In this document: positions 2,126 through 14,670 of the stretch, piece after piece
Layout: every line of letters starts with the position of its first letter
How positions within the stretch are numbered: the first letter of the stretch is position 1
Assembly: GCA_031289955.1 (NCBI GenBank)
Contig: JAITOL010000102.1
Coordinates: 1 to 38,245, forward strand
Length of the DNA stretch: 38,245 nt
Direction of reading: 5' to 3'
From: Synergistaceae bacterium
GTDB lineage: Bacteria; Synergistota; Synergistia; Synergistales; Synergistaceae
Program-made: the position numbers and the translations under genes
Notes under the pieces: model-generated
What the model saw: the letters and a program-made list of their open reading frames with translations, nothing else
The model's database searches: none
What the model was told of the DNA's origin: nothing

Positions 2126-3973
2126 ATGGCTAAAATAACAGGAAAGGTAATTGGAATAGATCTCGGCACCACGAACAGCTGTGTTGCCGTCAAGGAAGGG
2201 GATAACATAACCGTCATCCCGAACGCGGAGGGCAACAGGACGACTCCGTCGGTCGTGGCGTTCACGAAAGAGGGCGAGCGCCTTGTGGGGCAGCTGGCGA
2301 AGCGCCAGGCCATCGTCAATACGGAACGCACCATCATATCCATCAAGAGGAAGATGGGTTCCGACTACAAGGTCAAAATCGACGACAAGTCGCACAGCCC
2401 GCAGGAAATATCCGCGATGGTACTTCAGAAGCTGAAGCGCGACGCGGAGGAATATCTCGGAACGACGGTTTCTCACGCGGTCATCACCTGTCCGGCCTAC
2501 TTCACCGACGCTCAGCGCCAGGCTACGAAGGACGCCGGGACGATTGCCGGGCTGGAAGTGCTCCGCGTCATCAACGAACCGACCGCCGCCTGTCTCGCCT
2601 ACGGCGCCGATAAAGAGGGAGAGCATAAGATACTTGTCTTCGATCTCGGCGGCGGCACATTCGACGTATCGATACTGGACGTCGGCGACGGCGTCTTCGA
2701 GGTTCTCGCCACTTCCGGCGACAACATGCTCGGAGGCGACGACTGGGACAACAAGGTAGTCGAGTGGATGGAGGCCGAATTCAAACGCGCCGAGGGCATA
2801 GACCTCAAAAACGACAAGATGGCGGTTCAGCGTCTCCGCGAGGCGGCGGAGAAGGCTAAGGTCGAGCTTTCGTCCATGGCCGAGACCACCATATCCCTGC
2901 CGTTCATAACCGCTGACCAGAACGGGCCGAAGCATCTCGAACTGACGCTCACGAGGGCCAGGTTCGAGGATCTGACGAGAGACCTTCTCGAACGGGTCGT
3001 CAAGCCTACTCAGTCCGCGCTGAAGGATGCGGGCCTGACGGCTTCCGAGGTCGATAAAATACTTCTCGTCGGCGGTTCCATCCGTATGCCGATGGTGCAG
3101 AAGAAGGTCAGAGAACTTCTGGGGCACGAGCCGACAAAGGGCATCAACCCGGACGAGTGCGTCGCGATAGGCGCCGCGCTTCAGGGCGCGGTTCTCTCGG
3201 GCGAGCACAAGGATATAGTGTTGGTCGACGTAACGCCGTTGTCGCTCGGCCTCGAGACGATGGGCGGAGTCTTCACGAAGATAATCGACCGCAACACGGC
3301 CATTCCGTCGTCCAAGAGCCAGGTTTTCACGACTGCTGCGGATAATCAGCCCCAGGTCGAAGTTCACGTTCTGCAGGGCGAGCGCGCCATGGCCGCTGAC
3401 AACGTAACGCTCGGCAAGTTCACGCTCGACGGGATTCCTCCGGCGCCGCGCGGCATACCGCAGATAGAGGTTACGTTCGACATCGACGCCAACGGAATAG
3501 TCAATGTGACCGCTAAGGACAAGGGAACCAGCAAGGTTCAGCACATCACGATCCAGTCGTCCCGCCTGACGGACGCCGACATAGATAAGATGAAGCATGA
3601 CGCCGAAAGCCATGAGGACGAGGACAAGCGCAAGAAGGAGCTCATAGAGGCCAGGAATGAGGCCGATTCGCTGGTCTACAACGCCGAAAAGTCTCTCAAG
3701 GATCTGGGCGATAAGGTTGCCGAGAGCGAAAAGGCGGCGGTGGAGGGCAAGATAAACCTGCTTCGCGAGGCCATAAAGTCGGAGGATGTATCGAATATCA
3801 ACACCGCGCGCGACGAACTGATGACGGCTATGCATCCGATAGCCGAAAAGCTCTACGCGGACGGCAGCGCGGCGGCTTCCGCCGCCGAACCGGAGCGGAA
3901 TGACGGCGCGTCGTCCTCAGACGATGGCGCTACCGTCGACGCGGATTTCAGCACATCCGACGGGAATAACTGA
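2126..3973 (+). CDS. dnaK: Chaperone protein DnaK (Hsp70)
   Basis: DnaK is the ATP-driven chaperone that binds and releases unfolded segments of proteins in the cytoplasm, with DnaJ and GrpE as partners. It is 615 residues with the full family layout: nucleotide-binding domain with [12 protein letters not shown] (phosphate loop 1, about residues 10-21), [11 protein letters not shown] (connect 1), [12 protein letters not shown] (phosphate loop 2), LVGGSIRMP (adenosine motif), the linker [11 protein letters not shown], the beta-sandwich substrate domain and the helical lid, ending in an acidic tail. A strong AAGGAAGGGAG Shine-Dalgarno lies at 2110-2120. It is the third gene of the HrcA-controlled operon. 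The tail ends [12 protein letters not shown], a variant of the usual acidic end. Confidence 0.98.
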
Positions 3974-6847: not shown

Positions 6848-8212
6848 ATGGATAATATAAATATGTCGTGTTGTTCTCATCTGATAGGAAAAACTTTTTC
6901 TGTTACGACGCTCGGGTGTCGCGTCAATCACTATGAGGCGGAGGCTGTGGCCGGCGCTCTGGAGAACCGCGGAGCCGTTCTCGTGGAGGCGTCCCCCGAT
7001 ATAGTGATAACAGTCACCTGTTCCATTACGTCGACGGCCGACGCGAAGACCAGGAAGGCGCTTCGCCGGGCCCGGAGGGATCATCCGGATTCCGTCATAG
7101 TGGCCTGTGGCTGCTGGGCGCAGGCGGCGACGGAGTCGGACGCCGTGTCCGCCGGCGTTGACATTCTGGTTGGCAACCGCGTAAAACATGTGATAGTCGA
7201 TGCTCTTGAGCGCTGGTACGAATCGCCCGGCATTTTTATAGAGAGAAAAACGGATGTGGTTTCGAGCGTGGAATGGGACGCGTTGTCGCTGGACAGGCCC
7301 CGTATGCTCACGAGGGCTTTCATAAAGGTGCAGGACGGTTGCGACAGATCCTGCAGCTACTGCGCGGTGCCCTCTCTGCGTGGCGCGCACGTATCGCGCG
7401 ATCCGGACGACGTTGTGAGGGAAATTTCGCGCGTAGCCTCTTTCGGGACTAAAGAGGCGATACTGACAGGCATACAGCTTGGCAGCTACGGCCTCGACGG
7501 AGTGACGCTCGCCGGGCTGATTAGGAAAATTTCCGACGCTGGAGCGGTGACGAGGCTGCGGCTGGGTTCGCTCGAGCCGTTTTCAGTGACGGAGGAACTG
7601 CTTCAAGCTGCGTCGGACTCCGAGATATTCTGCCGCCATCTGCATCTGCCGCTCCAGAGCGGCGACGACGGAGTGCTCCGCGCAATGAGGCGAGGATATG
7701 ACGCGGCGGATTTCATCCGTATTGTGGATATGGCAAGACGTTATTTGGGGGACGACGCGCATATATCCACAGATCTCATTGTCGGTTTTCCGGGCGAGAG
7801 CGACGACGCGTTCGAACGCAGCCTCGCCCTTCTCGGCGAAGTCGGGCTGGGCAGGATACACGTTTTCCCATACTCGCGAAGAAACGGAACTGACTCGTCC
7901 GCCATGGAGGGCGTTCCCGGAAATGTCCTCAGGGAGAGAATGAATCGCGCGCTTCGCGTTGCGGACGGTTTGCTCGAAGCATACGCCGCGAAATTGATCG
8001 GCAGGGAGGATCGTGTGCTCGTGGAAGAGGTGGGAGAACGAGCGTCTTCCGGCTGGAACACGAGGTACGTGCGGGTTTACGCAAGAACTGAAAGTACGGG
8101 AAACTGCTTAATAGGAAATGAGCTAGTCGTGAGACCCAAATATTCGAATGGTAGTATACTCTTGTGCGAGGGCGTCGACGGGGAAAAAATAATTATGTAC
8201 CCCGATGAATAG
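6848..8212 (+). CDS. mtaB: tRNA (N6-threonylcarbamoyladenosine(37)-C2)-methylthiotransferase MtaB
   Basis: A radical-SAM methylthiotransferase of the MiaB/MtaB group, expected to turn t6A37 into ms2t6A in tRNAs reading ANN codons. The 454-residue protein has the amino-terminal UPF0004 domain with its cluster cysteines (TLGCRVNHYE, TCSIT, ACGCWAQ), the radical-SAM cluster motif CDRSCSYCAVP, and a carboxy-terminal TRAM-like region (about 385-454). The cysteine spacing and the TLGCRVN form favour MtaB over MiaB or RimO. Its position after rsmE equals yqeV in Bacillus. The start is ATG 6848, or possibly ATG 6863; no strong Shine-Dalgarno is visible for either. Confidence 0.88.
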   Translation: MDNINMSCCSHLIGKTFSVTTLGCRVNHYEAEAVAGALENRGAVLVEASPDIVITVTCSITSTADAKTRKALRRARRDHPDSVIVACGCWAQAATESDAVSAGVDILVGNRVKHVIVDALERWYESPGIFIERKTDVVSSVEWDALSLDRPRMLTRAFIKVQDGCDRSCSYCAVPSLRGAHVSRDPDDVVREISRVASFGTKEAILTGIQLGSYGLDGVTLAGLIRKISDAGAVTRLRLGSLEPFSVTEELLQAASDSEIFCRHLHLPLQSGDDGVLRAMRRGYDAADFIRIVDMARRYLGDDAHISTDLIVGFPGESDDAFERSLALLGEVGLGRIHVFPYSRRNGTDSSAMEGVPGNVLRERMNRALRVADGLLEAYAAKLIGREDRVLVEEVGERASSGWNTRYVRVYARTESTGNCLIGNELVVRPKYSNGSILLCEGVDGEKIIMYPDE

Positions 8213-8253: not shown

Positions 8254-9828
8254 TTGAGCGGCGAATATACCATCGGCATTGATCTGGGCACGAGGTATGC
8301 CCAGCTTGCAGTGGACATACCTGGGCGGGGAGTGCAATTCATCCCGAACAGATGGGGAGATGTCAGGACGCCATCGATGGTGGCTTTTACCAAGAATGGT
8401 CTTGTAGCTGGGCAGGACGCGGCCCGCATAGCCATTACAGAGCCGGACGCCGTGTGGTGGGACATGAAACGGCATCTGGGATCCGATTGGGTGGCGCGCG
8501 TCGGTGGACGCACGTACACTCCGGAAGAGCTTCTGCTCCCGCTTCTCTCCATCTTGCGGGAGGATGCGGAGGCTCATTTGCGGACATTCATTTCGTCATG
8601 CGTATTGGCAGTCCCCGCTCACTTCAGCTTTCCTGAAAGAGGCGCCCTTGCCAGGGCCGCCAGGCAGGCGGGTTTCGAAAAAATCCGAATAGTGAACGAG
8701 CCCACCGCCGCGGCGCTTACCACGGGCATAAACGGCCGTTTTCTGATAATAGATTTCGGAGCGGGCACCCTCGACATGTCGTTAGTCGAGGGGGAGGCCG
8801 GGGTCTTTCAGGTTGTGGAGAGTCAGGGGCGCAGGGATATAGGGGGGCTCGACATAGACAGGCTGCTGGCGGAGTGGCTGTGCCGAGGCGCGGGGCTACC
8901 TATCTCCAGGCCTGGCGACCCTAGAGCGTCTTTAATGATGCGGGAAGCAGAGGCGGTCAAAATAGAGCTTTCAGGCGCGAATAACGTCGTCTGGCAGGCG
9001 CCGGCCGGTCTTGCGGGCGTCGATAAATCCATCAGAATATCGCGCGCCGAGTTCGAGTCACTGATATACCCTCTTATGGAAGAGATACTCAAGATGGTGG
9101 AGAAGATGTGGAAAAAATATAATCCACAGCGCCTTCTTACGGTCGGAGGCAGCAGCAGGATCCCTCTTCTGCGCCGGCTTCTGGCCTCGCGTGTTCGGGA
9201 ACCGGATCACATGAGGATATGCCCGGAGGACGCAGTCGTCACCGGAAGCGCAATGTACGCGTATCAGGGGAAGGAGCGCCTGTTGATCGACGTTTTGAGC
9301 CGCAGTCTCGGGATAATGAACTCCGACGGCGGAGTTGTTCCTCTGCTTCGCAAGGGCTCTCCGCTTCCCGCCGAGGCGCGGCAGACGTTCACAGCGTGCG
9401 GAAGCGGCGCCATAGAAGTGACGATAGTTCAGGGGGAGCGCAGGGTTCGGAGCATAGGCCGCGTTCTTCAGACGCTGATGATAGAAAATGTCTCCGACGG
9501 GGAGCGCGTCGAGGTGTTCTTCAGTGTCGACGGCGGCGGTTTGCTGCATGTCGAGGTAAAGCGCGACAAGACTACGAGCCGGAAGACCATATCGCTCGAG
9601 AGCGACGAGTCGGTCGGCGCCCCGTGCGATCTTCTGGCGGAGATTCGCGTAAGGGAAGACAGACTGGCCAGGTTGTCATTGTCGTTCCCCGATAATTTTC
9701 AGTTGAGATTGTCCGATGTGACGCGCGATGCGCGGTTGCTCCGCAACGAGGACGCGTCGTTGCGATGGCAGGCTCTCGAGGTATTGGACAGAATGATATC
9801 CGAGCTCGAACAGGTGGCGTCGCCATGA
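8254..9828 (+). CDS. Divergent Hsp70-family protein (second DnaK paralogue, lid-less)
   Basis: A 524-residue Hsp70-type ATPase clearly different from the DnaK at 2126. The nucleotide-binding fold is complete: IGIDLGTRYAQLAV (residues 7-20, with TRYA where DnaK has TTNS), Lys72 in WWDMKRHLG at the catalytic-lysine position, EPTAAAL (149-155), IIDFGAGTLDMSLVE with Thr172, and TVGGSSRIP (296-304). The interdomain linker is altered (LLIDVLSRSLGI, lacking the TPLSLG of DnaK). After a beta-sandwich of normal size the carboxy end is only about 75 residues, too short for the DnaK helical lid. The TTG at 8254 is the only start upstream of the first motif, as a stop lies at 8245. It shares an ATGA overlap with a J-domain gene, so the two probably form a dedicated ATPase/co-chaperone pair. 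Substrate unknown. Confidence 0.85.
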   Translation: MSGEYTIGIDLGTRYAQLAVDIPGRGVQFIPNRWGDVRTPSMVAFTKNGLVAGQDAARIAITEPDAVWWDMKRHLGSDWVARVGGRTYTPEELLLPLLSILREDAEAHLRTFISSCVLAVPAHFSFPERGALARAARQAGFEKIRIVNEPTAAALTTGINGRFLIIDFGAGTLDMSLVEGEAGVFQVVESQGRRDIGGLDIDRLLAEWLCRGAGLPISRPGDPRASLMMREAEAVKIELSGANNVVWQAPAGLAGVDKSIRISRAEFESLIYPLMEEILKMVEKMWKKYNPQRLLTVGGSSRIPLLRRLLASRVREPDHMRICPEDAVVTGSAMYAYQGKERLLIDVLSRSLGIMNSDGGVVPLLRKGSPLPAEARQTFTACGSGAIEVTIVQGERRVRSIGRVLQTLMIENVSDGERVEVFFSVDGGGLLHVEVKRDKTTSRKTISLESDESVGAPCDLLAEIRVREDRLARLSLSFPDNFQLRLSDVTRDARLLRNEDASLRWQALEVLDRMISELEQVASP

Positions 9829-10829
9829 CGCGGGACGCCGAGTTCAGGACGCTGGGACTATCGCCGGACGCCAGCTGGGAGGAGGTAAAAAAAGCCTTTC
9901 GCCAGATGGCGCGCGCCTACCACCCCGATGTAGCGGGGCCGGATGGCGCGCGCAAGTTTGCCGAAATAACCGAGGCTTACATGGCCTTGAAGGAGCTGAC
10001 GTCGCCTGGCGCCGGCAAAATATCGCGTCCGCGCCATGCCAGGCGCGAAGCTCCGGTCGAGGAGACCGGGCAGAAGGAGTCCATATTCCGCAAATTCTGG
10101 AGGAGGCTCTTTTCGAAGGAGAGCGCCAAAGCGGAGGACGCTTATCAGGACGACGTCATTCCGCCCGCTCGCGTGCGTTTTATAGGGGGCGTCATCTCAA
10201 GGGCCGAGTCGGAGATGTACAACATTCTCTCGAAGCGCGACGAGTTTGTGACGAAGAGCAGGACTGACGCTATAATTCGTCGTTTGAGGAGCCGTCATCC
10301 GGGAGTGGTGCTGCTGGCGCTCCGTCAACTTTCCATATACAACGTAAAAGATGAGATTGCCGTCGCGGTGATAGATCATTTCAAACGCAATATGCCCGTG
10401 TCGGAGGTGCTCGATCGAGTGATGGACGTCTTCTCGAATACCCCGAGACGGGAGGAATTTTCCCGGGCGGTTCTCGGGCATCTTTATAAATTTTCCGAAA
10501 CGGACGCCATGACAGTCTTAAATCGCTTCAAACGCTGGAAATTGGCATCCAATTTCATACAGCCGTTTTTGTCTCACAAATCATCCTCCATTGTGGCCGC
10601 GGCCCTGTCATGCTGGCCGCGGGATTGTGAGGCATGCGACAGGGCGGAGCTTGCGGGTCTCCTCAGAAAAGATGAGGAGGCGATACTGATCCCACTGCTG
10701 CGTATACTCAGGAAGGGAAAACTGCCGACGTGGGCTGGCTGTCGTCTCGAAAAACTCATGAAGGAACACCCATCCCCCGCCGTAAGAGTGTGGGCTTCAG
10801 CTATTGTGCGAGATCAAAACCTGAGTTAA
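9825..10829 (+). CDS. J-domain protein with helical-repeat carboxy-terminal region
   Basis: The 334-residue protein begins with a compact J domain (about 1-58) including the HPD triad at residues 33-35 (AYHPDVAG), so it should stimulate an Hsp70 ATPase. There is no Gly/Phe region and no zinc domain. A basic linker (about 62-105) is followed by some 200 residues of alternating hydrophobic helices (for example HPGVVLLALRQLS and HKSSSIVAAALSCW) that look like degenerate HEAT-type repeats. The frame runs upstream to 9765, but the ATG at 9825 overlaps the Hsp70 stop as ATGA and has AGGTGG at 9812-9817. The coupling makes the neighbouring divergent Hsp70 its likely partner. HEAT assignment is by eye only. 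Confidence 0.8.
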   Translation: MTRDAEFRTLGLSPDASWEEVKKAFRQMARAYHPDVAGPDGARKFAEITEAYMALKELTSPGAGKISRPRHARREAPVEETGQKESIFRKFWRRLFSKESAKAEDAYQDDVIPPARVRFIGGVISRAESEMYNILSKRDEFVTKSRTDAIIRRLRSRHPGVVLLALRQLSIYNVKDEIAVAVIDHFKRNMPVSEVLDRVMDVFSNTPRREEFSRAVLGHLYKFSETDAMTVLNRFKRWKLASNFIQPFLSHKSSSIVAAALSCWPRDCEACDRAELAGLLRKDEEAILIPLLRILRKGKLPTWAGCRLEKLMKEHPSPAVRVWASAIVRDQNLS

Positions 10830-10976: not shown

Positions 10977-11162
10977 ATGACCAGCGTAACTCGGCGCGAT
11001 AACGAGTCTATCGAGGATGCTCTGAAACGTTTCAAGCGTGAGCTTCGTAAGGTGGGGGTGCTCAGAGAGGCCAGGAAACATGAGCACTATGAAAAACCCA
11101 GTGAAATAAAAAAGCGCAAGAAGGCGGCTTCAGTCCGAAACAAGCACAGGAGGCCCGAATAA
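10977..11162 (+). CDS. rpsU: 30S ribosomal protein S21
   Basis: A 61-residue, strongly basic protein with the S21 pattern: SIEDALKRFKRELRKVGVL, then HEHYEKPSEIKKRKK and a Lys/Arg-rich end. S21 sits near the anti-Shine-Dalgarno end of 16S rRNA on the small subunit. A very strong AGGGGAGGGGGG precedes the ATG. The stop overlaps the yqeY start by one base (TAATG). rpsU followed by yqeY is a conserved pair in Bacillus and clostridia. The long leader suggests its expression is controlled at the RNA level. Confidence 0.96.
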   Translation: MTSVTRRDNESIEDALKRFKRELRKVGVLREARKHEHYEKPSEIKKRKKAASVRNKHRRPE

Positions 11163-11620
11163 TGCCCTCCCCGCTCGCGGAACTGATCCAGAAGGACATG
11201 GTTTCCGCCATGAAGAGCCATGACGCGCTCAAACTCTCCGTCCTCAGGATGCTGAAAACAGCGATACAGCTGGCATCCACTGAAAAAGGCCGAGAGGGCG
11301 AGCTTACGGACGAAGACATTCAGGTTTTGATACGCCGCGGCATCAAACAGCGCGAGGAAGCTGCCGAAGTCTATAAGAACGGCGGGGCTTCCGACCGTGC
11401 CCAGGGCGAGCTGGACGAGGCCAGGATACTTACATCCTATCTGCCTGCGCAGTTGGGCGACGAAGAGCTCGAAAGCGTCGTAAGGAAGATAGCCGCGTCG
11501 AGCGGGGCGTCCTCGCAAAAAGATATGGGCCTCGTCATGAGCGCCGCTATGAAAGAACTCTCCGGGCGCGCTGACGGTAAAAGGGTCAAGGACGCGGCGC
11601 GGAGGATTCTTGCGGGCTGA
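11162..11620 (+). CDS. yqeY: GatB/YqeY domain protein
   Basis: A 152-residue all-helical protein of the YqeY family, which resembles the tail domain of the GatB subunit of the tRNA-dependent amidotransferase; its exact role is not settled. Recognisable parts are the opening LIQKDMVSAMKSHD, LRMLKTAIQ, the central IKQREEAAEVYKNGG, ILTSYLPAQL, and the final DMGLVMSAAMKELSGRADG with VKDAARRIL. The start codon overlaps the rpsU stop by one base, so translation is coupled. A strong terminator follows at 11650. Confidence 0.93.
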   Translation: MPSPLAELIQKDMVSAMKSHDALKLSVLRMLKTAIQLASTEKGREGELTDEDIQVLIRRGIKQREEAAEVYKNGGASDRAQGELDEARILTSYLPAQLGDEELESVVRKIAASSGASSQKDMGLVMSAAMKELSGRADGKRVKDAARRILAG

Positions 11621-11773: not shown

Positions 11774-12952
11774 GTGGCGACGGGCGAGTTTTCGATATTG
11801 GCTGAGTACGAGGTTGACGATGATCTTTCTCTTCTTCTCGCGAGAGGCGAAGGCGTGCCGAGGCTCGGAATATTCAATCTAAACAGCGAGAAAAAGAAAT
11901 ATGTGCCGCTGTCCTGGATAGAGGATCCCTCCCGTACACTCAAGATAAAAGTGGGCCGCACCACGAAAGAATATCAGATGAAGCTCATAGAGGAGGGGGT
12001 CTCCTCTTTGATAGAGAGGGGCGCGGAAGCGCTGTCGCTGAACTCCCTCGCCTGGCGGGGAGTGCAGCTTCTGGGAGATCTCATACACATACCGAAAGCC
12101 GCGAGAAGCGACGCCGATCTAAGCCTGATAGCCGATAATAAAAGGGATACTCTCTGGTACGCTTATACGCCCAAAAAGGGTAAATGGCGGGTTCATCCCT
12201 GTTTCTCCGTCACGGAAAAAGAACGTGGCATTCTCTCTGCCGCCATGGAGGACGGCAAACCGTGGCCGACTCCCGCCCTATCCATGGAAAACGGGTCGCT
12301 GCCCTTTACGATGCGCAACGTTCCTGTCGTCAAGGAGCTTGCCCTGGGCAACCCGGCGAGGTGGAGCGAATTCATGCTTCCGGTGGCGAAGGCGATGCTT
12401 CTCGGTTTCAGCGACTGGTCGAGCGACGGCGAACACCTGTTCACAGACGCTCTGTGGAAATATCTGCCTAAGCAGAATTACAGATCCGAGGAGACCATCA
12501 CGGCGATCGCCTCATCGGGCAGAACGTTTATGAACAAGTTAATCGCTTATCTCAGGCTTTGGCCCATGCTGGAACATGTGCAAGCCGAGAAGGTTCCGGA
12601 CGCTACGAAAACGCTCGAGGAGCGCGGAATGAAAAAGCGCGAGCGTTTCGAGATGATAGCGCCGAACCTCGGCGACAAGCAGTTCCGTGTGACGAGGCTC
12701 GTGGACGAGGAATCTTCCGGCGTCTCGTTCGGCATAGTGCCTACGACAAGGCTGCCAGGCGAGCAGGACAGGATAATAACGTTCTCAGGCGAGGACTGGG
12801 CCACATGTCTGGACGCGTGCGCGCTGGGAGGGGAGGCCGATCCCCAGTATACGTGCAACTCGGCGCTTGCTGGGATAGAGACGAAGAACTGGTACATCCG
12901 GCTGGTAGAATGTCTTTCGAAGGCGCCTGAACCGGAGGACGAGGAGGAATAG
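11774..12952 (+). CDS. Conserved-looking hypothetical protein, first gene of a two-gene cassette
   Basis: I do not recognise this 392-residue protein. It begins at GTG 11774 with GGGGTGAT at 11761-11768. It has no signal peptide or membrane segment, so it should be cytoplasmic. It looks like a globular mixed alpha/beta protein: a strand-rich start (LGIFNLNSEKKKYVPLSWI), a helical middle (about 75-105 and 215-270), then a Lys/Arg-rich patch around residue 285. The late part (about 300-380) is strand-rich, with ITFSGEDWATCLDACALGG and scattered cysteines. The last residues are an acidic tail, PEPEDEEE. Codon use resembles its neighbours, so it does not look recently acquired. Only 5 bases separate it from the next gene, so they are surely co-transcribed. 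Function unknown. Confidence 0.8.
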   Translation: MATGEFSILAEYEVDDDLSLLLARGEGVPRLGIFNLNSEKKKYVPLSWIEDPSRTLKIKVGRTTKEYQMKLIEEGVSSLIERGAEALSLNSLAWRGVQLLGDLIHIPKAARSDADLSLIADNKRDTLWYAYTPKKGKWRVHPCFSVTEKERGILSAAMEDGKPWPTPALSMENGSLPFTMRNVPVVKELALGNPARWSEFMLPVAKAMLLGFSDWSSDGEHLFTDALWKYLPKQNYRSEETITAIASSGRTFMNKLIAYLRLWPMLEHVQAEKVPDATKTLEERGMKKRERFEMIAPNLGDKQFRVTRLVDEESSGVSFGIVPTTRLPGEQDRIITFSGEDWATCLDACALGGEADPQYTCNSALAGIETKNWYIRLVECLSKAPEPEDEEE

Positions 12953-12957
12953 CAGCT

Positions 12958-14670
12958 TTGAACGGTTATGTCGACAACGCCATTGCGGCGATAGCTGAGA
13001 AATGGAAGGACAATAAGGAAATTTCTACGCTCGCGAAGCAGATGGAAGTGCTCGGGAAGAATATGGCGCACCTGCGCGACGCGCATGACTCGGAGGGCCG
13101 CAAGAAAGCCCGCATAGTATGGCAGAAGGCGGCCTCCCAGTACTGGGATCTGCTCTGGGCCATCGTGGAGGCTAAAATAGACGCAGGCCCGCCGGATGAC
13201 CTCGAGTTCGACGAGTGCGAAAGGCTTCTCATAGACTACGGACACCTCTCGTCGCAATATACGACCCCAAACCCGGCGTTCGAGGAGCAGCTCGGCGAGC
13301 CCTCTGCCGTCGACATGTATCAGTACAACAGGCTGACGGACTATATCAAGGAAAACTACTCGCTCATATTCGGAAAACCGTACAAGGGGCCGTCCGGCGG
13401 CGTGACGCTGGACGAAAAACTCAAGCGCTTCAACAACGATCTCAAAGTCACAAAAACGAGACGCCGCATAGCGATACACACTCTGATAGCCAAGACCGAC
13501 CTCATAGAAAAGTCCGAGCTCGAGGACACTCTGAAAAACCTCGACGAAGGCTTGAGGGACGCGGTCGAAAGCGACATGCGCACAAAGCGTATCCGAGAGG
13601 CGGACAACGCGGAGCGCTCCGTCATAAAGGAACACTGCAAGCAATATGAGATAGCGGAACGCACATTCTGGTATCTCATGGACAATCTCGAACGCAGGCT
13701 GACAAAAGCCGACGAGCCAAAGGCCGAGGCCGCCCCGGCCGAAACCGCCGGTCAGCCGGCGTCCGAAACGCCGCCAACTCATACCGATGCGTTCGACCCG
13801 TTCGAGGAGATAGAGGCCGATGCGGACATCAAGCCGGTCCTGAAGCTCCCGGAACCTGTGGCCTCCCCGGAGGACATTCAGGAAGACCCGATGGAGGATA
13901 TCGATTCGGAGGCGACCGCCGAGTCGATGAGGGAGGCGCCGTCCCCGGAACCTGAGGCGCCCGATCAGACGCTCAAGATAATCCAGAATGTACTTTCGCT
14001 GCACGACAAGACGAAATTCCTGGCAGGTCTCATAGTCCACGTCACGAACGAGGCTGAACGCTGGAAGACGCGCACTGAGATGGCGTCGAAAAAGTACAAG
14101 GGACAGGGGCTGCCTGCCCTGAAACTGGAGCTGCGCGAGGGCATAAACCACAAGAAGGATTTCATGATGCTCGCCGCCCGCACCGCCAGAATAGACACAT
14201 CGCCGCTCTGCCAGAACAAAAACAAGCCGGTTTCGATGTCCAGGTCGGGGGAGATAATGATGGATCTCACCCCTCTCGATCCCGACATGCTGCGCGCGTC
14301 GAGGATAAGAATGTACGGAATACCGCGCGTAATTCTCGTCCCCGGCCAGGGGCTCGGGGTCTACGACTGGGAGGATAACAGCCTGATAATCCCGATATTC
14401 GACGCCGTCTCCGACGTAAAGGATTTCTGTTTCGCCCTTGCCGCGTTCCGCTGGGACAACGACGAGGACAGAACGCTGAAGGACACCTACTCGCTCTTGA
14501 AGGCGAACAAGGGCAAGGGCATCCGCGCGCTCCAGGAGGCGTTCATGAACGACTACTTCCTCTGGATCTCGAAGGAGCGCAAGGGCTACCGCATTTTGCC
14601 CAGGGATGTGTCGAAGTGGTTCAAGACGTTCTTCAAGCAGAAGTCCGGGGTGGAGGGCGCTAAAAAATAA
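12958..14670 (+). CDS. Large hypothetical protein with acidic linker, second gene of the cassette
   Basis: I do not recognise this 570-residue protein. It starts at TTG 12958 with AGGAGG at 12942-12947 inside the end of the previous gene. Three parts are visible. Residues 1-250 are strongly helical and charged, probably partly coiled coil. Residues about 250-340 form a Pro/Glu/Ala-rich, low-complexity linker. Residues about 345-570 form a compact domain with PRVILVPGQGLGVYDWED, FCFALAAFRWDND, DYFLWISKERKGYR and VSKWF. The last domain has the look of a conserved bacterial domain, but I cannot name it. No signal peptide or membrane segment is seen. It is followed by convergent lepA. It probably acts with the product of 11774. 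Confidence 0.8.
   Translation: MNGYVDNAIAAIAEKWKDNKEISTLAKQMEVLGKNMAHLRDAHDSEGRKKARIVWQKAASQYWDLLWAIVEAKIDAGPPDDLEFDECERLLIDYGHLSSQYTTPNPAFEEQLGEPSAVDMYQYNRLTDYIKENYSLIFGKPYKGPSGGVTLDEKLKRFNNDLKVTKTRRRIAIHTLIAKTDLIEKSELEDTLKNLDEGLRDAVESDMRTKRIREADNAERSVIKEHCKQYEIAERTFWYLMDNLERRLTKADEPKAEAAPAETAGQPASETPPTHTDAFDPFEEIEADADIKPVLKLPEPVASPEDIQEDPMEDIDSEATAESMREAPSPEPEAPDQTLKIIQNVLSLHDKTKFLAGLIVHVTNEAERWKTRTEMASKKYKGQGLPALKLELREGINHKKDFMMLAARTARIDTSPLCQNKNKPVSMSRSGEIMMDLTPLDPDMLRASRIRMYGIPRVILVPGQGLGVYDWEDNSLIIPIFDAVSDVKDFCFALAAFRWDNDEDRTLKDTYSLLKANKGKGIRALQEAFMNDYFLWISKERKGYRILPRDVSKWFKTFFKQKSGVEGAKK

Follow-up and report, generated by a model that had tools for sequence, protein, structure and literature searches.

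A divergent Hsp70 and an adjoining J protein with a HEAT-like scaffold form a Synergistota-restricted pair, probably a client-specialised chaperone system

Organisation of the locus

The window, meaning the whole analysed stretch of 38,245 nucleotides from a Synergistaceae bacterium, carries two overlapping plus-strand genes. These are a divergent Hsp70 gene at positions 8254–9828 (TTG start, 524 aa; ORF call, Pfam and AlphaFold) and a J protein gene at 9825–10829 (ATG at 9825, 334 aa; ORF call and Pfam), which share an ATGA at 9825–9828. The TTG start of the Hsp70 gene is kept in close relatives. A preliminary description had placed this ATGA-joined pair between mtaB and rpsU, and the order hrcA-grpE-dnaK-dnaJ-prmA-rsmE-mtaB-Hsp70-J-rpsU-yqeY was confirmed. 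On the same strand, the block comprises the canonical dnaK (2126–3973; Pfam HSP70, 806 bits), mtaB as upstream neighbour (6848–8212; assigned from its translation and an order recurrent in relatives), rpsU for S21 as downstream neighbour (10977–11162; Ribosomal_S21, 1.1e-19) and yqeY (11162–11620; assigned from its translation and the order in relatives). In a search that reaches close relatives only, the same gene block was found in six further MAGs, one block being cut by a contig end; in three of the six, yqeY was undetected at its usual place.

It had also been stated that the pair has neither a CIRCE nor a GrpE of its own. This is correct, though a perfect CIRCE operator, the HrcA site, sits before hrcA at 411–437 on the plus strand (0 mismatches; chance expectation of the scan 0.01 at up to 3 mismatches), together with a sigma-70-like promoter, TTGACA-17-TATCCT, at 363–391 on the same strand, assigned by consensus match. 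Because of these two sites, a gap of 41 bp between the end of mtaB and the start of the Hsp70 gene, and a plus-strand scan of this gap that gave no convincing terminator, the pair is probably part of the CIRCE-led hrcA operon. The absence of an own CIRCE is therefore uninformative in the window.

Downstream of yqeY, two proteins of 392 and 570 aa (11774–12952 and 12958–14670) have no Pfam or NCBIfam match and 57–80% identity in close relatives. At 7–345, an ORF resembles, as judged by eye, a portion of HsdR, the type I restriction subunit.

The divergent Hsp70

The Hsp70 has the NBD-linker-SBD-beta architecture and the actin-type ATPase motifs of the superfamily, with a Pfam HSP70 score of 247 bits (cut-off 20.6), and Foldseek matched its model to DnaK and BiP with E-values down to 3e-43. 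In residues, the domains are the NBD (about 1–338), the linker (341–349), the SBD-beta (about 351–448) and a C-terminal three-helix bundle (460–522). Its identity to the window's own DnaK is about 30%, and it falls below the cut-offs of the DnaK models (TIGR02350, 223 vs 822.6; PRK00290, 222 bits vs 648) and of the HscA model (TIGR01991, 219 vs 708.6). No isc genes were found among the neighbours of the pair, in the window or at the loci of relatives.

To describe the protein at the residue level, positions were mapped onto E. coli DnaK in an alignment with 28 relatives. As had been noted before, the catalytic residues are retained: the window Hsp70 has D8, T11, K70, E171, D194, T199, G341, G342 and R345, and about 27 of the 28 relatives keep the ATP-site residues, family f9 being the exception. 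R167, N170 and D393 are important for J-domain binding in DnaK; all three are present in the window Hsp70 and retained in most members. Several other positions are altered. The phosphate-1 loop is changed from GTTN to GTRY (T12 to R family-wide, N13 to Y), phosphate-loop G197 is A in most members, and Y145 is lost. T12R and the frequent G197A could slow hydrolysis.

In the case of the linker (ERLLIDVLS, equivalent to DnaK 388–396; plus strand, 9274–9300), the TPLSLG form is indeed lost as letters (window DVLSRSLG, P396 to S), as had been reported; the allosteric core LL(I/L)DV is retained. The linker is the best-conserved stretch of the protein: mean identity to the window is 71% there (339–350), 52% in the NBD, 40% in the SBD-beta and 33% in the C-terminal helices. 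The substrate arch is remodelled, with M404 and A429 replaced family-wide, and SBD loop 427–437 has lost N432-Q433 and carries a deletion of two residues. The HscC-type insertion of 4–8 residues in loop L1,2 of the SBD-beta is absent from the alignment. AlphaFold predicts the NBD, a complete SBD-beta and three C-terminal helices (460–475, 480–498 and 501–522; plus strand, 9631–9819). The lid, which had been thought lost, would thus be reduced rather than absent, as judged from a single-chain model of moderate confidence in this region.

Both genes have dN of 0.11–0.30 against dS of 1.5–2.2, the latter close to saturation. Since dN is far below dS, these are not chance ORFs, and both appear to be under strong purifying selection. 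In close pairs, the Hsp70 (dN 0.11–0.14) is under tighter constraint than the J protein (0.19–0.30).

The J protein

Three parts can be distinguished in the J protein: an N-terminal J domain with HPD, a basic linker and a C-terminal HEAT-like solenoid. Pfam recognised DnaJ at residues 8–57 and nothing else above threshold, the zinc finger and DnaJ_C being missing; together with the HPD motif, which is invariant among the J proteins compared, this corresponds to a class C J-domain protein. In the AlphaFold model, the J domain is followed by a linker of poor order and by a solenoid made up entirely of helices, in which pLDDT is mostly above 90. The HEAT-like assignment of the solenoid (residues 114–330; plus strand, 10164–10814) is based on this model, on Foldseek matches to alphaRep, TOG and AP2-type repeats with weak E-values, and on HEAT Pfam models, which matched in 5 of 33 relatives and in the J protein of family f11 (HEAT_2, 8.6e-26). 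No ribosome-binding domain or Zuo1-type domain was detected, and plasmids gave no match beyond the J domain.

Distribution and gene neighbourhood

The J search covered 188 Synergistota genomes, and profiles of the J C-terminus and the Hsp70 were run on 392 genomes, of which 204 belong to other phyla (labels: f, family; g, genus; G, genome; L, locus; C, contig). The 73 genomes with Hsp70 orthologues all belong to Synergistota, and almost all of these orthologues score 430–782 bits. Below them came the f11 paralogue and the DnaK proteins of any phylum, with 331 bits at most, so that the 204 genomes of other phyla held nothing comparable; the only scores near this gap were two NBD-only remnants in G103 (337–344 bits). 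The J C-terminus occurred in 115 Synergistota genomes and elsewhere gave marginal matches only (E about 3e-4, two in other phyla). Many other Synergistota genera have neither gene.

Both genes were present in 68 genomes, the J gene only in 47 and the Hsp70 gene only in 5. Contig breaks probably account for two of the 47 (G040, G158) and three of the five (G038, G100, G113), which leaves about 45 of the 115 J-positive genomes without the Hsp70, and G094 and G101 without the J gene. Strict co-occurrence therefore fails, and the two genes do occur apart in relatives, an outcome that the preliminary description had named among those that would speak against it. The pair is not exclusive, and the word ‘dedicated’ is weakened.

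Linkage is nevertheless recurrent across lineages. Adjacency and order are kept in seven families (f1, f3, f4, f5, f6, f7 and f9), with a 4-base overlap in about half of the pairs. A J gene adjoins nearly all full-length Hsp70 genes (exceptions G094 and G101), and nearly all full-length loci read mtaB-Hsp70-J, with G101 as the exception for mtaB. A branched-polyamine synthase (BpsA) gene lies between mtaB and the Hsp70 gene in f3 and f9. In most families rpsU follows downstream, usually after a gap that contains a HIT gene where checked; the lineage of the window has no such gap. The expected location is kept in part: rpsU is missing from the site in g31, g32, g40, g41 and others with mtaB-Hsp70-J, and f11 has Hsp70-J-HIT-rpsU without mtaB.

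Two apparent Hsp70-J fusions (871 aa in G124, 691 aa in G018) were rejected, since they are extended open frames that overlap in a different frame, and a role in defence was dropped, a single weak PADLOC hit being all that pointed to it.

Loss and decay

In g38, g39 and g48 the Hsp70 is lost and the J gene kept; in g48 the order J-HIT-rpsU is preserved, and in g38 the J gene is at another place (L072, L084, L108, L109). The g38 J gene is followed by one for a conserved, probably secreted protein of 214–224 aa, with no Pfam match in the one tested. NBD-only Hsp70 remnants were found in g45 and g47. In the case of G103 and G105, only the NBD of the Hsp70 is left, and no J gene adjoins it (L113 4553–5863, L098 4176–5429, L076 14651–15835), and G103 carries two J copies elsewhere, one directly beside smpB (L076 5371–7095). 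In lineages that lost the Hsp70, DnaK is probably the partner of the J protein.

Family f9 shows a different pattern. Its Hsp70 (L078 7437–9411; L110) is changed at the equivalents of K70, E171, D194 and T199, and its J protein has shrunk to about 140 aa and retains a disrupted vestige of the C-terminal part. To judge from these substitutions and truncations, the two proteins decay jointly in f9.

Phylogeny and origin

In the trees, the divergent Hsp70s form their own clade (support 100/100) on a long stem, and HscC falls outside it in a larger tree. Clustering with ordinary recent DnaK duplicates, which would have spoken against the preliminary description, was not seen: apart from sharing a gene block with dnaK-dnaJ, the pair offers virtually nothing in favour of an ordinary recent dnaK-dnaJ tandem duplicate, which is rejected by this clade, its spread over several families, the low identity to the local DnaK and a J protein without zinc finger and DnaJ_C domains.

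A likely relative was found in f11, a lineage that lies deep in Synergistota and does not belong to the window's order. Here a cluster BpsA-DnaK2-J(HEAT)-HIT-rpsU (L115 7809–11902; also L116 and L117) lies apart from the dnaK operon, and its DnaK-like Hsp70 (570 aa) has canonical GTTYS and TPLSLG and 55–58% identity to the window DnaK. In a tree without long-branch rows, the f11 protein and the G266 DnaK2 fell together with the divergent Hsp70s, opposite all ordinary DnaKs (99/99.8). This f11 grouping was not seen in the larger tree including HscC, HscA and other long rows, and a long-branch artefact is possible. Because shared neighbours, architecture and tree agree, common descent of the pair and the f11 DnaK2-J(HEAT) is likely, the long stem keeping it short of proof; the f11 row of DnaK-like Hsp70, J-HEAT, HIT and S21 likely represents the ancestral state. 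The pair would then probably derive from an ancient DnaK2-J(HEAT) pair beside HIT-rpsU that is still DnaK-like in f11, with the strong divergence of the Hsp70 occurring later, in the Synergistales-level order of the window.

Two further Hsp70s were observed. G266, of another phylum, has a DnaK-like Hsp70 beside a 263-aa J protein (L122 1948–4629) in a flagellar context without rpsU, the J protein being weakly similar to the J-HEAT C-terminus; among 65 other-phylum genomes with at least two Hsp70s, this pair, already in the query, was the only J-HEAT pair found. In the genome of the window itself, contig C167 (L085 1639–5339) encodes a third Hsp70 (568 aa, 37% to DnaK), not close to the divergent clade; the protein encoded after it, of 659 aa, has no Pfam match.

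A client-specialised Hsp70 system and its alternatives

Altogether, this is a real, selected and Synergistota-restricted Hsp70-J system, a variant of the specialised Hsp70-JDP kind. Co-location across Synergistota and the exclusion of a recent duplicate uphold the proposed specialised machine, and its exclusivity does not hold. We consider it probable, with reasonable though not high confidence, that the pair is an Hsp70 system driven by ATP, targeted by its J protein and specialised for particular clients, comparable with HscA-HscB and HscC-DjlC and belonging to neither. The conserved ATPase residues, J-docking residues, linker and HPD, and the one apparent transcription unit, are in line with this, as far as sequences can tell. 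The HEAT-like solenoid of the J protein would bind and position a limited set of clients and present them to the Hsp70, in which the J domain, to judge from the docking residues and HPD, may trigger ATP hydrolysis. The client would be held in the modified groove with its small lid and freed after nucleotide exchange, either intrinsic or via the GrpE of the same operon. With its remodelled arch and small lid, the Hsp70 is expected to accept a smaller or altered range of peptides than DnaK and to bind them more quickly and less tightly; lid-less DnaK shows quicker peptide binding and release (cited in PMC7083937). By analogy with HscA and HscC (PMC8215388), a narrower client range is expected.

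The preliminary description had suggested a ribosomal or modification-related client from the neighbouring genes. As the neighbours vary across loci, this suggestion is weakened. In its general form, which gives the pair a role in translation, for example with nascent chains or in the assembly of the 30S subunit (S21), as a bacterial counterpart of yeast RAC (Ssz1-Zuo1), we regard it as unlikely. A link to translation is possible and is hinted at by the rpsU linkage in most families, which in f11 is independent of the dnaK operon, by J-HIT-rpsU in g48 after Hsp70 loss and by the J gene beside smpB in G103; most members have a net positive charge in the J linker and solenoid, and Ssz1 is likewise a lid-less Hsp70 with a J partner (PMC7083937). 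However, gene order may merely reflect an old stable block, and the rpsU linkage is unreliable as a hint to the client because it is broken too often, as in g31, g32, g40, g41 and others, with the J gene elsewhere in g38. The missing ribosome-binding domain, and catalytic residues and a canonical linker core that are kept here and not in the non-hydrolysing Ssz1, also argue against it.

A second alternative, likewise doubtful, puts the function chiefly in the J protein, as an adaptor with a HEAT scaffold that can use DnaK, and makes the Hsp70 a dispensable, drifting partner or regulator. The survival of the J protein in about 45 genomes without Hsp70, and its persistence in G103 and G105, which have NBD-only forms of the Hsp70, fit this idea. 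However, the Hsp70 is the more constrained of the two in close pairs, and across families other than f9 it retains the ATPase residues and the linker.

Somewhat less likely is a general stress backup, that is, an extra DnaK-like system under HrcA/CIRCE with no special client. Such a role would fit the likely co-transcription of the pair with the CIRCE operon, in the window as in many relatives; it would not fit the family-wide remodelling of arch, loop 427–437 and lid. In addition, no CIRCE was seen before the pair in several genera in which it lies away from hrcA-dnaK, and the f11 pair is outside the dnaK operon.

A more far-reaching proposal is a bacterial ribosome-associated machine convergent with RAC/Ssb, in which the HEAT J protein docks the reduced-lid Hsp70 on ribosomes or 30S precursors, with one Synergistota origin and several losses; its probability is slightly lower again. 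We retain the client-specialised Hsp70 system as the best explanation.

Relation to known systems and meaning

Three bacterial Hsp70 types, DnaK, HscA and HscC, are distinguished in a review (PMC8215388). E. coli HscC-DjlB/DjlC resembles the present pair in a diverged Hsp70 with a shortened lid near its own class C J proteins. DjlB and DjlC are, however, tail-anchored membrane proteins (PMC8215388), whereas the J protein here has a HEAT-like solenoid; HscC also has the loop L1,2 insertion (PMC8215388) absent here. HscA-HscB of Fe-S assembly is likewise a client-specialised Hsp70 with a dedicated J protein, but in HscA the phosphate-1 loop is canonical, Met404 of the arch is present and the lid is complete; all three are altered in the window Hsp70, which also has no isc neighbours. 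Ssz1-Zuo1 shares a reduced-lid Hsp70 with a J partner. Unlike Ssz1, which has no ATP hydrolysis and a detached linker (PMC7083937), the Hsp70s of this family, f9 excepted, have conserved catalytic residues and linker core, and judged by these they would be neither non-hydrolysing nor of non-canonical linker type.

DnaK2 paralogues such as Myxococcus MxDnaK2 are similar in DnaK duplication and specialisation, and the f11 protein of 570 aa is of this kind; the window Hsp70 is too diverged for PRK00290. Among 23 Synergistetes genomes, a survey of DnaK duplication counted 17.4% with two dnaK genes (PMC11019930), and as the window Hsp70 lies below the PRK00290 cut-off, it would not pass the family model of that survey. 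As in other class C (type III) J-domain proteins, only the J domain is common with DnaJ. In the open-licence literature we found neither the Hsp70-J pair itself nor a HEAT-like J C-terminus beside a paired Hsp70. By the linkage of a J gene to the Hsp70 gene across lineages, the genes appear to form a specialised pair.

If this reading is true, the pair would be a further, phylum-restricted bacterial Hsp70 type with its own J architecture. The DnaK-like relative in f11 would provide a before-and-after pair for studying Hsp70 specialisation, and the Hsp70-less J lineages together with the catalytically altered f9 would offer natural experiments for telling which of the two partners is responsible for the function.
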